Below are positions 34,972 through 39,138 of a DNA stretch of 59,840 nt, piece after piece; the first letter of the stretch is position 1, and every line of letters begins with the position of its first letter. The translations under genes were made by a program, and so were the position numbers. The notes under the pieces are model-generated. The model had not been told where the DNA came from, searched no databases, and saw nothing but the letters and a program-made list of their open reading frames with translations. Source of the DNA: Butyricicoccus faecihominis (GTDB taxonomy: Bacteria; Bacillota; Clostridia; Oscillospirales; Butyricicoccaceae); assembly GCF_024462775.1 (NCBI RefSeq), contig NZ_JANGCE010000023.1:1-59840 (forward strand). The letters are read 5' to 3'.

Positions 34972-35805
34972 TTATTTTTCGCCCGCTTCTCCCTCCGGCG
35001 GGCCGTCCCCATCCTCCGGCGCGGGAAGCACGACTGGGATGAGCGACGCGGCAAAGCGGCCCTTTCCGCGTTTTTTAACGTAGAAATAACCGATAAAGGA
35101 GAAGATCAGCGCGCCCACACAGTTGACGATCAGGTCCTTCATCGTATCGATCAGGCCCACATCAAGATAGCCGCCGGGGAACTCCATCCAATCCTCGCCG
35201 TTGACGACCAGACTCGTGATCGGCTCGTGTACCACCGTGTTGAGCCCGCTTGGATTGAGCGATACCGAGTTGACCGTTTGCACGATAAAATCCTTTTGCA
35301 TATCCGTTCCGAGCAGTTGATCGGAACCAAACTCAAAAAACTCCCACAGCACGCCCACGGTCATGGAGAAACAAAACGCCACGATCGCCAAAAACAGCGG
35401 CGACAGGCGAAAGGTGAACCGCTCGCTTCGATTGAATAGGTCGACCAGCGAAAAGCCGACCGCCGCGACCAGAAAGCCGTTTAGCGTGTGCAGCATCGTA
35501 TCCCAATACGGGATGATGGTGTAAAACGAATTGATTTCGCCCAAGATTTCCGCCGCGAAGATAAAGCAGTAAATAATGCCCTCCATCACGGGCGGGATAT
35601 CGATGGACAGGCGCTTTTCCAGCGCCATCGGCACGCAGAACAGGATGAGCGCCAAAACGCACACGAACACGTTCTCGTACCGCCCCATAAACGCCGCGCG
35701 GATGAGCGTGAGCACGATAAAGAAGGATAAAACGCCGCGTATGGTCATGCGCCGCCGCACCTGTACCGGCGCTTGTTCTTCAGTTTTCTTTTTACGGCCT
35801 AGCAT
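34972..35805 (-). CDS. Multipass membrane protein (DUF2238/YjdF-like)
   Basis: 277 residues, ATG after AAAGGAAC. About six membrane segments, with YWDTMLHTLNGF, GVLWEFFEFGSDQLLGTDMQK and DTMKDLIVNCVGAL. These conserved acidic and His residues within or next to helices match the YjdF-like family. The basic N-terminus and acidic Pro-rich C-terminus are cytosolic. Function unknown. TATAAT on the minus strand (35846-35851) marks the promoter. Confidence 0.75.
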   Translation of the reverse strand: MLGRKKKTEEQAPVQVRRRMTIRGVLSFFIVLTLIRAAFMGRYENVFVCVLALILFCVPMALEKRLSIDIPPVMEGIIYCFIFAAEILGEINSFYTIIPYWDTMLHTLNGFLVAAVGFSLVDLFNRSERFTFRLSPLFLAIVAFCFSMTVGVLWEFFEFGSDQLLGTDMQKDFIVQTVNSVSLNPSGLNTVVHEPITSLVVNGEDWMEFPGGYLDVGLIDTMKDLIVNCVGALIFSFIGYFYVKKRGKGRFAASLIPVVLPAPEDGDGPPEGEAGEK

Positions 35806-35997: not shown

Positions 35998-38900
35998 ATG
36001 TATATCGCGGATCTGCATATTCATTCCCGTTTTTCCCGCGCCACCAGCCGCGAATGCGACGCGCCCCATCTGGATTGGTGGGCCCGCCGCAAGGGGATCT
36101 CGCTGCTTGGCACGGGCGATTTCACGCACCCCGCGTGGCGCGAAGAGCTAAAGGCGCAGCTTGAACCCGCAGGGGACGGCGTGTATCAGCTGCGGGAGGC
36201 ATATCGCCTGCCCTTCGCCACGCCCGGTGAAACGCCCCGCTTTGTCGTGACGGGCGAGATCAGCTCCATCTACAAGCGGGACGGCAAGACCCGCAAGGTG
36301 CATAATTTAATTTTACTGCCCAGTCTGGAAGCGGCGAACGAGCTGTCCGCGCGGCTGGAAGCCATCGGCAATATCCATTCGGACGGGCGGCCCATTCTGG
36401 GGCTGGACAGCCGCGACCTGCTCGAATTGACGCTCGAGACCTGCCCGGAGGCCGAGTTTATCCCCGCGCACATCTGGACGCCGCACTTTTCCATGTTCGG
36501 CGCGTTTTCGGACTTCGACACCGTTTCCGCGTGCTTTGACGATATGACGCCCCACATCCACGCAGTAGAGACCGGACTCTCCTCCGACCCGCCGATGAAC
36601 TGGCGCGTTTCCGCGCTGGACGGGTTGACGCTGGTATCGAATTCGGACGCGCACTCCCCAGCCAAGCTGGGCCGCGAAGCCAATTTGCTGGAGACCGCGC
36701 GCACCTATCCTGCGCTGGTTCGCGCCATCCGCACCGGCCAAGGGTTTGAGGGCACGGTGGAGTTTTTCCCGGAGGAAGGCAAATACCATTTGGACGGGCA
36801 CCGGAATTGCGGCGTTTGCTTAACGCCCGCCGAGACCGCCGCGCGGGGCGGTCTATGCCCGGTCTGCGGCAAAAAGCTGACCGTTGGCGTGGAGCACCGG
36901 GTCGAAGCGCTGGCCGATCGCCCCGCGGATTTCCGGCCCGCAGCGGCCAAGCCCTTTGAAAGCCTTGCGCCGCTGCCCGAGGCCATTGCGGCTTCCACCG
37001 GCGGCTCGGCCACGGGCAAAAAAACGCTGGAACAGTACGAGCGCATGCTCCGCGAATTGGGGCCGGAATTTTATATTTTGCGGCAAGCGCCAATCCCGGA
37101 TATCGAACAGGTTGCGGGGCCGTGCGTGGCCGAGGGCATTCGCCGCCTTCGCATCGGTCAGGTAGACCGGCGCGCCGGCTTTGACGGCGAATACGGCACC
37201 ATTTCCCTGTTAACCCCCGCCGAGATCGAGCGGTTCAGCGGCCAGATCTCCCTATTCGGCGCGGAAGCGCCGCAGGGAAAGAAAAAGGCGGCCAAAGCGC
37301 TTGCCAAGGCCGCCCCGGCGCTGTCCGCCGCACCGGTGGACGAAGCGCCGAACCCGGAGCAGCTGGCGGCGATTGCCGCCGCGGAACAGACGGTGGCGGT
37401 CGTGGCCGGGCCGGGCACGGGCAAGACCAAAACGCTGGTCGCCCGCATCGCCCATTTAATCGAAGAACGGGGCGTGAAGCCGGGCGAGATCACCGCCGTT
37501 ACCTTTACCAACCAAGCGGCCGCCGAAATGCTCGATCGTTTGGAAAAGCGGCTGGGCGGCAAACGCGCGGTGCAGCGCATGACCATCGGCACCTTTCACG
37601 CGATCTGTCTGAACCTTTTAAAGGGCGCGCGTCTGATCGGTCAGGGCGAGGCGCTTACCGTCGCGGCGCAGGTGCTCCGCGAGCACGCGGGCAAGGGCGG
37701 CCCACGCGCGCTGCTGCAAGCGGTCTCCCGCGTAAAAAACGGCGCGTCTTTGGAGGATACCGGGCTGGGCGGCGACCTATATGAAGCTTACTGCGCGCGC
37801 CTGCGGCAAATGGGCGTTTTGGATTTCGACGACCTGCTCACCGAAGCGCTGGGGCTGGATACCGCGGGCCTAAAAAGCTTTTCCCACCTGCTGGTGGACG
37901 AATTTCAGGACATCAACGACACCCAATATGCACTGATCCGCGCGTGGAGCGAACACGGCAAAAGCCTGTTCGTCATCGGCGACCCGGACCAGTCTATTTA
38001 CGGCTTTCGCGGCGCAAGCGGCCGCTGCTTTGAGCGGCTGTTGGAGGACTGCCCGAAAGCGCGCGAAATCCGCCTACAGCAAAATTACCGCTCCGCGCCG
38101 GAAATCCTCGCTGCGGCCGCGCCGGTGATCGAGCAAAACCCCGGCGGTTCACGCGCGCTTGCCGCGCACCGCGCCCCCGGCGCCGCCGTGCGTCTGGTGC
38201 GGGCGGCGGACGGTTTCGCGGAGGGGATCTTCATCGCCAAGGAAATTGGCCGCATGGTCGGCGGCGTCGATATGCTGGAAGCGCAAAAGCTGGAGCACGA
38301 ACGGGAGATACGCGCCTTTTCCGATATCGCGGTGCTTTGCCGCACGCACCGGCAGTTAGAACTGATTGAAAAATGCCTGACGCACGACGATATCCCCTGC
38401 ATCATCAGCGGCCGGGAGGATTTTCTGGATGATGATACGGTGCGCGGCGCGCTCGCCTTCTGGCGGTCGCTCCAAGCGCCGGACGACGCGGCGGCGCTTG
38501 AGACCGCGCTTCACCTGCTGTGGCGCTGTCCGGCCGATCTGATCCAAAAGGCGCAGGCGGCCTGCGCCGCGTTGGACACGTTCGATCCCGATCCTCTGCG
38601 CCCGCTCGCGGCGGGCTACGGCCATCTGGAAGCGTGGCTCGGGCGCGCCGAGGAATGGCTGCCCCATATGAAGGAAAAGCCCCGCAAGCTGGTGGAACGC
38701 TGGGCGGAGCAGTACGGCGATTCGCCCGCCCTGACGCGCCTGCGGGACATGGCAGTGTTTTACGCCACCCTGTCCGAGCTGTGGAACGCGCTGACGCTGG
38801 GGCAGGAAGCCGACTTGCGCCGCGCCGCGGGCAAGGGCTGGCAGTCCGGCGCGGTGCGGCTGATGACGCTGCACGGCTCCAAGGGGCTGGAATTTCCCGC

Positions 38901-39138
38901 CGTGTTCGTGGCCGGTATCACCGCAGGGTCGCTTCCGCTGGAATCGCAGGCGCGCCCGGCCGACCTCGAAGAGGAACGGCGGCTGTTCTACGTCGGCATG
39001 ACGCGCGCGCGGGACGAGCTGATCCTTACCGCGGGCGGCGAGCCCTCTGTTTTCCTAAACGACCTGCCTGACCGTGTCAGGCGGGAAAACGCCGCGCGGC
39101 GGCGTGACGCTCCGCTGGAGCAGATCAGCCTATTTTAA
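35998..39138 (+). CDS. EndoQ-like PHP nuclease fused to a UvrD/PcrA-type helicase
   Basis: 1046 residues from ATG 35998. Residues 1-410: PHP fold of the endonuclease Q type (DLHIHSRFSRATS, GTGDFTHP, HIWTPHFSMFG, SNSDAHSP) with a C4 zinc motif (C271-x2-C274, C287-x2-C290, GVEHRVEALADRP). EndoQ enzymes cut 5' of deaminated bases. Residues 450-1035: SF1A helicase with Walker A GPGTGKT (471-477), DEFQD (634-638), GDPDQSIYGFRG, QNYRS, LHGSKGLEF and VGMTRAR. QISLF occurs at 416-420 in the linker and again as the last five residues; both match the bacterial beta-clamp-binding consensus. Likely a repair machine; the regulator gene follows 12 bases later. Confidence 0.87.
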   Translation: MYIADLHIHSRFSRATSRECDAPHLDWWARRKGISLLGTGDFTHPAWREELKAQLEPAGDGVYQLREAYRLPFATPGETPRFVVTGEISSIYKRDGKTRKVHNLILLPSLEAANELSARLEAIGNIHSDGRPILGLDSRDLLELTLETCPEAEFIPAHIWTPHFSMFGAFSDFDTVSACFDDMTPHIHAVETGLSSDPPMNWRVSALDGLTLVSNSDAHSPAKLGREANLLETARTYPALVRAIRTGQGFEGTVEFFPEEGKYHLDGHRNCGVCLTPAETAARGGLCPVCGKKLTVGVEHRVEALADRPADFRPAAAKPFESLAPLPEAIAASTGGSATGKKTLEQYERMLRELGPEFYILRQAPIPDIEQVAGPCVAEGIRRLRIGQVDRRAGFDGEYGTISLLTPAEIERFSGQISLFGAEAPQGKKKAAKALAKAAPALSAAPVDEAPNPEQLAAIAAAEQTVAVVAGPGTGKTKTLVARIAHLIEERGVKPGEITAVTFTNQAAAEMLDRLEKRLGGKRAVQRMTIGTFHAICLNLLKGARLIGQGEALTVAAQVLREHAGKGGPRALLQAVSRVKNGASLEDTGLGGDLYEAYCARLRQMGVLDFDDLLTEALGLDTAGLKSFSHLLVDEFQDINDTQYALIRAWSEHGKSLFVIGDPDQSIYGFRGASGRCFERLLEDCPKAREIRLQQNYRSAPEILAAAAPVIEQNPGGSRALAAHRAPGAAVRLVRAADGFAEGIFIAKEIGRMVGGVDMLEAQKLEHEREIRAFSDIAVLCRTHRQLELIEKCLTHDDIPCIISGREDFLDDDTVRGALAFWRSLQAPDDAAALETALHLLWRCPADLIQKAQAACAALDTFDPDPLRPLAAGYGHLEAWLGRAEEWLPHMKEKPRKLVERWAEQYGDSPALTRLRDMAVFYATLSELWNALTLGQEADLRRAAGKGWQSGAVRLMTLHGSKGLEFPAVFVAGITAGSLPLESQARPADLEEERRLFYVGMTRARDELILTAGGEPSVFLNDLPDRVRRENAARRRDAPLEQISLF

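Follow-up and report, generated by a model that had tools for sequence, protein, structure and literature searches.

The DNA analysed here, referred to as the window, is a stretch of 59,840 nucleotides from Butyricicoccus faecihominis (contig NZ_JANGCE010000023.1). It carries on its forward strand a gene (35998..39138) that encodes, in a single continuous open reading frame (ORF), a protein of 1046 residues in which a nuclease resembling endonuclease Q (EndoQ) is joined to a UvrD/PcrA-type helicase. The pentapeptide QISLF occurs twice in this chain, once in the linker between the two halves and once as the extreme C-terminus. The same two-part layout recurs in 88 other proteins. We propose that the fusion is probably a single-chain, β-clamp-tethered enzyme of alternative excision repair that would act on deaminated bases, its activities being predicted from sequence. 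A role with deaminated bases fits two observations: the residues reported to exclude T and A from the lesion pocket are invariant, and uracil-DNA glycosylase (UDG) is more often missing from genomes that carry the fusion. The nuclease family, the helicase family and the docking motif are all known; their conserved arrangement is one for which we found no description in the literature searched, which took in few subscription journals, and it may be known elsewhere, for example in annotation.

A conserved nuclease-helicase fusion

The ORF starts with ATG at position 35998, its stop codon ends at 39138 and its product begins with MYIADLHIHS. An earlier note on this DNA had read the gene as a nuclease and a UvrD helicase in one chain, and the ORF, its coordinates and both domain matches bear this out. 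An assembly artefact can be dismissed as the origin of the fusion, the identical layout being present in many records.

The 89 fusions studied (the window's included) come from clostridial records, from other genomes of the order or the phylum and from one Termititenax record. Their identity to the window protein ranges from 38 to 76%, with a median of 57%. A scan of a contig database gave 119 relatives, 80 of which were kept; 55 of these (L039-L093) bear the fusion or a part of it. Five of the 55 were left out: one reaches a contig end (L064), one has the helicase part only (L087) and three (L069, L075 and L085) have an interrupted fusion reading frame, through either assembly error or real decay. 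Records L006, L007 and L009 are the window itself, and L015 and L016 are fragments. Three fusions from the phylum sample that are cut by contig ends (L163, L175 and L176) were counted for the linker only. L010 is identical to L090, L053 to L054 in the EndoQ half, and 83 sequences remain at 90% identity.

The EndoQ-like half, residues 1-404 (35998..37209, forward strand), matches EndoQ of Pyrococcus furiosus (PfuEndoQ) by phmmer, the match to structures 5zb8 and 7k30-7k33 covering residues 4-408 with E values of 1e-43 to 3e-44. An AlphaFold2 model of the fusion, whose alignment took in 46 of the 89 sequences, has a mean predicted local distance difference test score (pLDDT) of 83.5 and a predicted template-modelling score (pTM) of 0.56. 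Foldseek comparison of this model with EndoQ 5zb8 and with the dU-DNA-bound form 7k30 gave template-modelling scores (TMt) of 0.84-0.86, so that the structural match named beforehand as a check was found.

All seven residues of the PHP metal site, which the earlier note had recognized, can be mapped: H7, H9, E87, H102, H158, D217 and H219 align by phmmer with PfuEndoQ H8, H10, E76, H84, H139, D193 and H195, and each is present in 89/89 fusions. Three of the PfuEndoQ residues, E76, H84 and H139, are given as essential for cleavage in a review (PMC8307549); their counterparts are E87, H102 and H158, again 89/89. In the DNA-bound crystal chain 7k30, N stands at the position of PfuEndoQ D193 and fusion D217. 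The residues reported in the same source to exclude T and A from the pocket, PfuEndoQ H139, G169 and S171 (PMC8307549), correspond to H158, G193 and S195, which are also invariant (89/89).

The separate zinc-binding domain is present as well, in an altered form. Its ribbon, H268-x2-C271...C287-x2-C290 (36799..36867, forward strand), aligns with the Cys-x2-Cys...Cys-x2-Cys of PfuEndoQ, with His in place of the first zinc cysteine, and each of the four residues is found in 89/89 fusions. The C4 motif described earlier must thus be amended to His-Cys3: C274, which gives the window protein its C4 look, is Cys in 67 of the 89. Of the 32 standalone EndoQs, 7 do not fit the search pattern and the other 25 all have Cys at the position of H268, where nine EndoQ-only relatives of the fusion, described below, have His.

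The second half, residues 452-1019 (37351..39054, forward strand), is a UvrD/PcrA-type helicase. The match to UvrD/PcrA helicases runs from residues 448-452 to about 1022 (best E 2e-63), the Pfam UvrD-helicase score is 187.4 bits against a gathering cut-off of 23, and the model resembles UvrD-type helicases in Foldseek with a best TMt of about 0.7. Helicase motifs Q, I, Ia and II-VI are conserved in the motif consensus across fusions, and the Walker A lysine is K476. Score, motifs and fold agree with the earlier description of a complete UvrD-type helicase. The protein does not reach the NCBIfam equivalog cut-offs for PcrA (303.1 vs 911.2), UvrD (269.9 vs 1144.45) or Rep (283.6 vs 951.45). The genome of the window has a second UvrD-family helicase gene (G000:C19), with a frame of 803 residues and 33% identity over the matched part, and this is probably its PcrA.

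Two putative clamp-binding motifs

QISLF stands, as first noted, at residues 416-420 in the linker (37243..37257) and at residues 1042-1046 (39121..39135), both on the forward strand. It fits the general β-clamp-binding consensus, given as QxxLF in PMC12309361, as the earlier note had proposed with QLxLF in mind. The PolC of the same genome ends in ...TTQISLFA, and the genome has one β-clamp match above the cut-off. Between the linker motif and the helicase lie residues 421-447 (37258..37338, forward strand), which are probably disordered: their pLDDT is below 50, as is that of the final 12 residues, and their columns have high entropy.

Against this variable background both motifs are conserved, the C-terminal one more strictly, which answers a check on orthologues that had been set beforehand. 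Strict QxxLF is found in the linker of 58/89 fusions and in the last 15 residues of 75 of the 86 that have a C-terminus; in 56 of these 75 the chain ends with it. With the relaxed pattern [QE]xx[LIMF][FLWY] the counts rise to 84/89 and 85/86. Both motifs occur together in 51/86 fusions in strict and in 81/86 in relaxed form, which supplies the survey of co-occurrence that the earlier note called for. Column entropy is 0.41 bits at Q416 vs a mean of 3.15 over residues 421-445, and 0.09 bits at Q1042 vs 3.07 in the tail before the motif, and 79 of 80 representatives have Q at column 1042. In the Termititenax fusion the linker motif is degenerate and a C-terminal QLSLF is kept.

Two other explanations of the motifs were considered and rejected. 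Shuffling the same stretches yields a strict QxxLF in 0.9% (linker) and 1.4% (tail) of cases, and two unfused control sets lack the motif, which excludes a chance origin. No QxxLF was seen in the last 20 residues of 47 unfused UvrD-like helicases (one of which, L117, is cut by a contig end), and 32 standalone EndoQs have no strict QxxLF in their last 80 residues and no relaxed form in their last 40; one of them, L147, has an internal, non-terminal QxxLF at residue 85 of 397. The second explanation, a sampling bias from the search peptides, is countered by the phylum sample, whose 33 fusions came to light through the TIGR00375 profile only and still often have the strict motif (linker 18/33, end 27/30); the remaining 56 have it in the linker of 40 and at the end of 48. 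The peptides themselves did not contain QISLF, but one, EAPQGKKK, lies three residues after the linker motif. Given their match to the consensus at conserved, flexible sites, we predict that these proteins bind the β-clamp.

There is a precedent in archaea, where EndoQ binds PCNA through a C-terminal PCNA-interacting peptide (PIP) box and PCNA raises its cutting (PMC4858679). The Pyrococcus abyssi protein Pab0431, which we infer to be an EndoQ orthologue, has a PHP domain, a zinc ribbon and a C-terminal PIP motif and was found with PCNA (PMC3820547). A remark in PMC4858679 has bacterial EndoQs bearing a C-terminal clamp motif; contrary to it, the 32 standalone EndoQs of our set (L119-L148, L182 and L183) are without one in the C-terminal stretches given above.

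Distribution and origin

A search of the order covered 147 genomes, among them that of the window; five others have full-length relatives, and two more have a fragment of the nuclease or the helicase part. The titles of fusion records name mostly Clostridia, Oscillospiraceae and allied groups, with outliers in Tepidanaerobacteraceae (L092) and Candidatus Termititenax (L088). A phylum sample of 299 genomes has EndoQ-family matches in 155, and at least 33 genomes other than the window's have a fusion: all listed matches with frames of at least 600 residues carry both halves. Fusions may be commoner in this sample than counted.

A tree of the EndoQ half was made by a quick method, with a warning of long branches from the program. 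In it, a branch with a value of 100 in the Shimodaira-Hasegawa-like approximate likelihood ratio test (SH-aLRT) separates the 32 standalones from the 89 fusions together with nine EndoQ-only relatives. The nine relatives are scattered among the fusions. The simplest reading of this pattern would be one old fusion followed by several later losses of the helicase and the motifs. We also considered a split form, with the helicase encoded separately nearby, and rejected it: none of the nine has a helicase match in the flanks examined, the downstream flank of L190 and of L194 being cut short by the end of the contig. L194 may itself be part of a complete fusion. In two genomes (G147 and G428) a fusion-type EndoQ-only copy lies about 5-7 kb from a full fusion on the same contig (the pairs L184/L191 and L185/L192), and these copies end before the linker motif.

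Co-occurrence with uracil-DNA glycosylase

A survey of the phylum sample covered the UDG superfamily (PF03167), Ung and EndoV; other enzymes, such as ExoIII-type nucleases, may also repair uracil. The UDG superfamily is missing from 27/155 EndoQ-positive vs 4/144 EndoQ-negative genomes (Fisher p 1.9e-5). The difference is larger for the fusion group, composed of the 33 phylum-sample genomes and the window genome: 12/34 vs 4/144 (Fisher p 4e-7), the 12 belonging to 8 families. Among the other EndoQ-positive genomes, 15/121 lack the superfamily (p 0.003); ten genomes without listed matches were placed in this group, which may therefore include some fusions. Ung shows a similar pattern, being present in 1/34 fusion genomes (that of the window) vs 54/144 EndoQ-free ones (p 2e-5); it occurs in 17/121 other EndoQ-positive genomes, that is, in 18/155 EndoQ-positive vs 54/144. 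EndoV was matched in 4/299 genomes, none of them EndoQ-positive. The pattern of UDG absence fits EndoQ-type enzymes standing in for UDG, and the fusion may help explain the Clostridia without a recognisable UDG (31 of the 299 genomes, 27 of them EndoQ-positive).

A proposed model for repair on the clamp

The proposed pathway has four steps. First, the dimeric clamp would receive one or both QxxLF motifs in its peptide pockets, a step suggested by the match and conservation of the motifs, and this would place the enzyme at replicating or repairing DNA. Second, the nuclease half would nick the DNA 5' of uracil or hypoxanthine, by analogy with archaeal EndoQ, for which this chemistry is established; the archaeal cut is on the 5' side of the lesion and leaves a 3'-OH (PMC4357722). 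Third, the UvrD-type motor, 3'-to-5' by the polarity of its family, would enter at the nick on the undamaged strand, travel towards the lesion and beyond it, and strip off the damaged strand starting at its 5' end. This step is suggested by the position of the nick and by that polarity: UvrD moves 3' to 5' and, in nucleotide excision repair, peels off the strand that has been excised (PMC7776575). Fourth, a clamp-held polymerase would extend the 3'-OH, and the repair would be completed by a flap nuclease and a ligase. For archaeal repair after EndoQ, a polymerase-displacement route and a route by EndoV plus helicase have both been proposed (PMC4357722). Cooperation of the fusion with EndoV was considered and discarded, since the window genome has no EndoV match.

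A natural nuclease-helicase fusion with conserved clamp tags suggests an answer to how repair of EndoQ-type nicks is finished. It is tempting, if somewhat doubtful, to extend the proposal further: in many Clostridia the repair of uracil and hypoxanthine would be initiated mainly or solely by the fusion, which would replace UDG plus EndoV and bridge both pockets of the β-clamp dimer with its two QxxLF motifs. If true, nicking, strand peeling and resynthesis would take place on one clamp, and a single polypeptide would provide an excision pathway free of glycosylases. The fusion might also be of use in the detection of uracil or inosine in DNA, as a mesophilic enzyme that nicks and unwinds.

Strength of the proposal and alternatives

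The earlier note had already predicted clamp-tethered repair of deaminated bases, and the invariant pocket residues and the more frequent absence of UDG support this as a prediction. Several observations weigh against it. On the side of the clamp, the linker motif is not strict in 31/89 fusions and drifts in some branches, and the relaxed pattern, at 16% (linker) and 10% (tail) in shuffled stretches, is permissive and by itself weak evidence. In Bacillus subtilis, the QLSLF at the C-terminus of PolC binds DnaN only weakly, with a dissociation constant (KD) of 3.8 µM (PMC12309361); because one motif is a weak binder there, a chain with two of them could gain from both on a dimeric clamp. The nine EndoQ-only relatives within the fusion clade are without the helicase half, and eight of them are without the strict clamp motif, the ninth being cut by a contig end. 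In the structural model the individual domains are well predicted and their mutual arrangement is not (pTM 0.56).

Other points concern the nuclease and the genomes. The TIGR00375 score is 153.9 bits, below the curated equivalog cut-off of 326.6, and for that reason we assign the nuclease on sequence grounds to a separate EndoQ-type subfamily and not to the TIGR00375 equivalog; only 2/299 phylum genomes have any match above this cut-off. Over its best-matching local segment, the EndoQ half shares 25-33% identity with standalone EndoQs from the phylum, and a long branch separates the fusion clade from the standalones, so that its substrate may have shifted. A UDG-superfamily gene is kept in 22/34 fusion genomes, including that of the window; the trend towards UDG loss is also seen in genomes with standalone EndoQs and is not peculiar to the fusion; and the co-occurrence statistics ignore shared ancestry, many of the genomes being drafts.

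The 25-33% identity, the long branch and the UDG genes kept in 22/34 fusion genomes would also fit a diverged EndoQ-helicase whose main substrate is not uracil or hypoxanthine but AP (apurinic/apyrimidinic) sites, oxidised pyrimidines, ribonucleotides or flaps. AP sites and oxidised pyrimidines are among the substrates of PfuEndoQ as well (PMC8307549), and the pocket is built by the zinc-binding and catalytic domains, the former of which has exchanged a zinc Cys for His in the fusion. However, the equivalents of H139, G169 and S171 are invariant in all 89 and UDG absence is commoner with the fusion, and we regard a different substrate as unlikely.

Still less probable is an anti-phage enzyme, a Gabija-like pairing of nuclease and UvrD helicase directed at uracil-containing or modified phage DNA. 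The helicase half does match the GajB models of PADLOC (best E 1e-73), but since these models describe UvrD-type helicases, such a match may be a generic one. A possible antiviral role of bacterial EndoQ is mentioned in PMC8307549. The genomic neighbourhood, however, weighs against this idea: no GajA-type partner nuclease was found by Pfam among the neighbours tested beside the window gene, which are, two per side, a membrane protein without a Pfam match, an HD-domain protein, a response regulator and a sensor kinase, together with a MatE protein. Nor did the loci yield an operon clue, the commonest other gene family occurring in 7/56 of them, many with short flanks. Least probable of all is that the clamp motifs, though real, mainly park a replication-coupled helicase to which the nuclease is accessory: the helicase-side C-terminal motif is stricter (75/86) than the nuclease-side one (58/89), but the catalytic residues of the nuclease are invariant and the EndoQ-only relatives have kept the nuclease without the helicase (no search was aimed at helicase-only relatives).

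The membrane-type protein just mentioned has 277 residues and is encoded upstream of the fusion gene and divergently from it (34972-35805, reverse strand).

Comparison with known systems

Returning to the proposed clamp-tethered repair enzyme, one of its closest counterparts is EndoQ, as known from PfuEndoQ, TkoEndoQ and the Bacillus homologues. The fusion shares the fold, the PHP metal residues, the position of the zinc ribbon and the lesion-pocket residues, and it has a clamp motif after the nuclease module, like the archaeal PIP box. In contrast to EndoQ, it has a helicase attached and a His-Cys3 zinc site, and it forms a clade apart from the clostridial standalones; the motif is of the β-clamp type and not of the PCNA type, and a second one lies at the far end, after the motor. 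With UvrD/PcrA-type superfamily 1 (SF1) helicases the fusion shares the helicase motifs and fold; it differs in its N-terminal nuclease, in a C-terminal QxxLF absent from the 47 unfused relatives, in its scores below the three equivalog cut-offs and in coexisting with a second UvrD-family gene.

Gabija likewise pairs a UvrD-type helicase (GajB) with a nuclease. GajA is an OLD/TOPRIM enzyme, whereas the nuclease of the fusion is a PHP-type EndoQ, covalently joined to its helicase and without GajA beside it in the window. A further comparison is with the proposed pathway of EndoQ, EndoV and a helicase set out in the legend to Figure 10 of PMC4357722, in which an EndoQ nick is followed by removal of the damaged strand by a helicase. 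In the fusion, unlike in that scheme, the helicase is covalently attached to the nuclease, and EndoV has no match in the window genome and matches in 4/299 genomes of the phylum sample.

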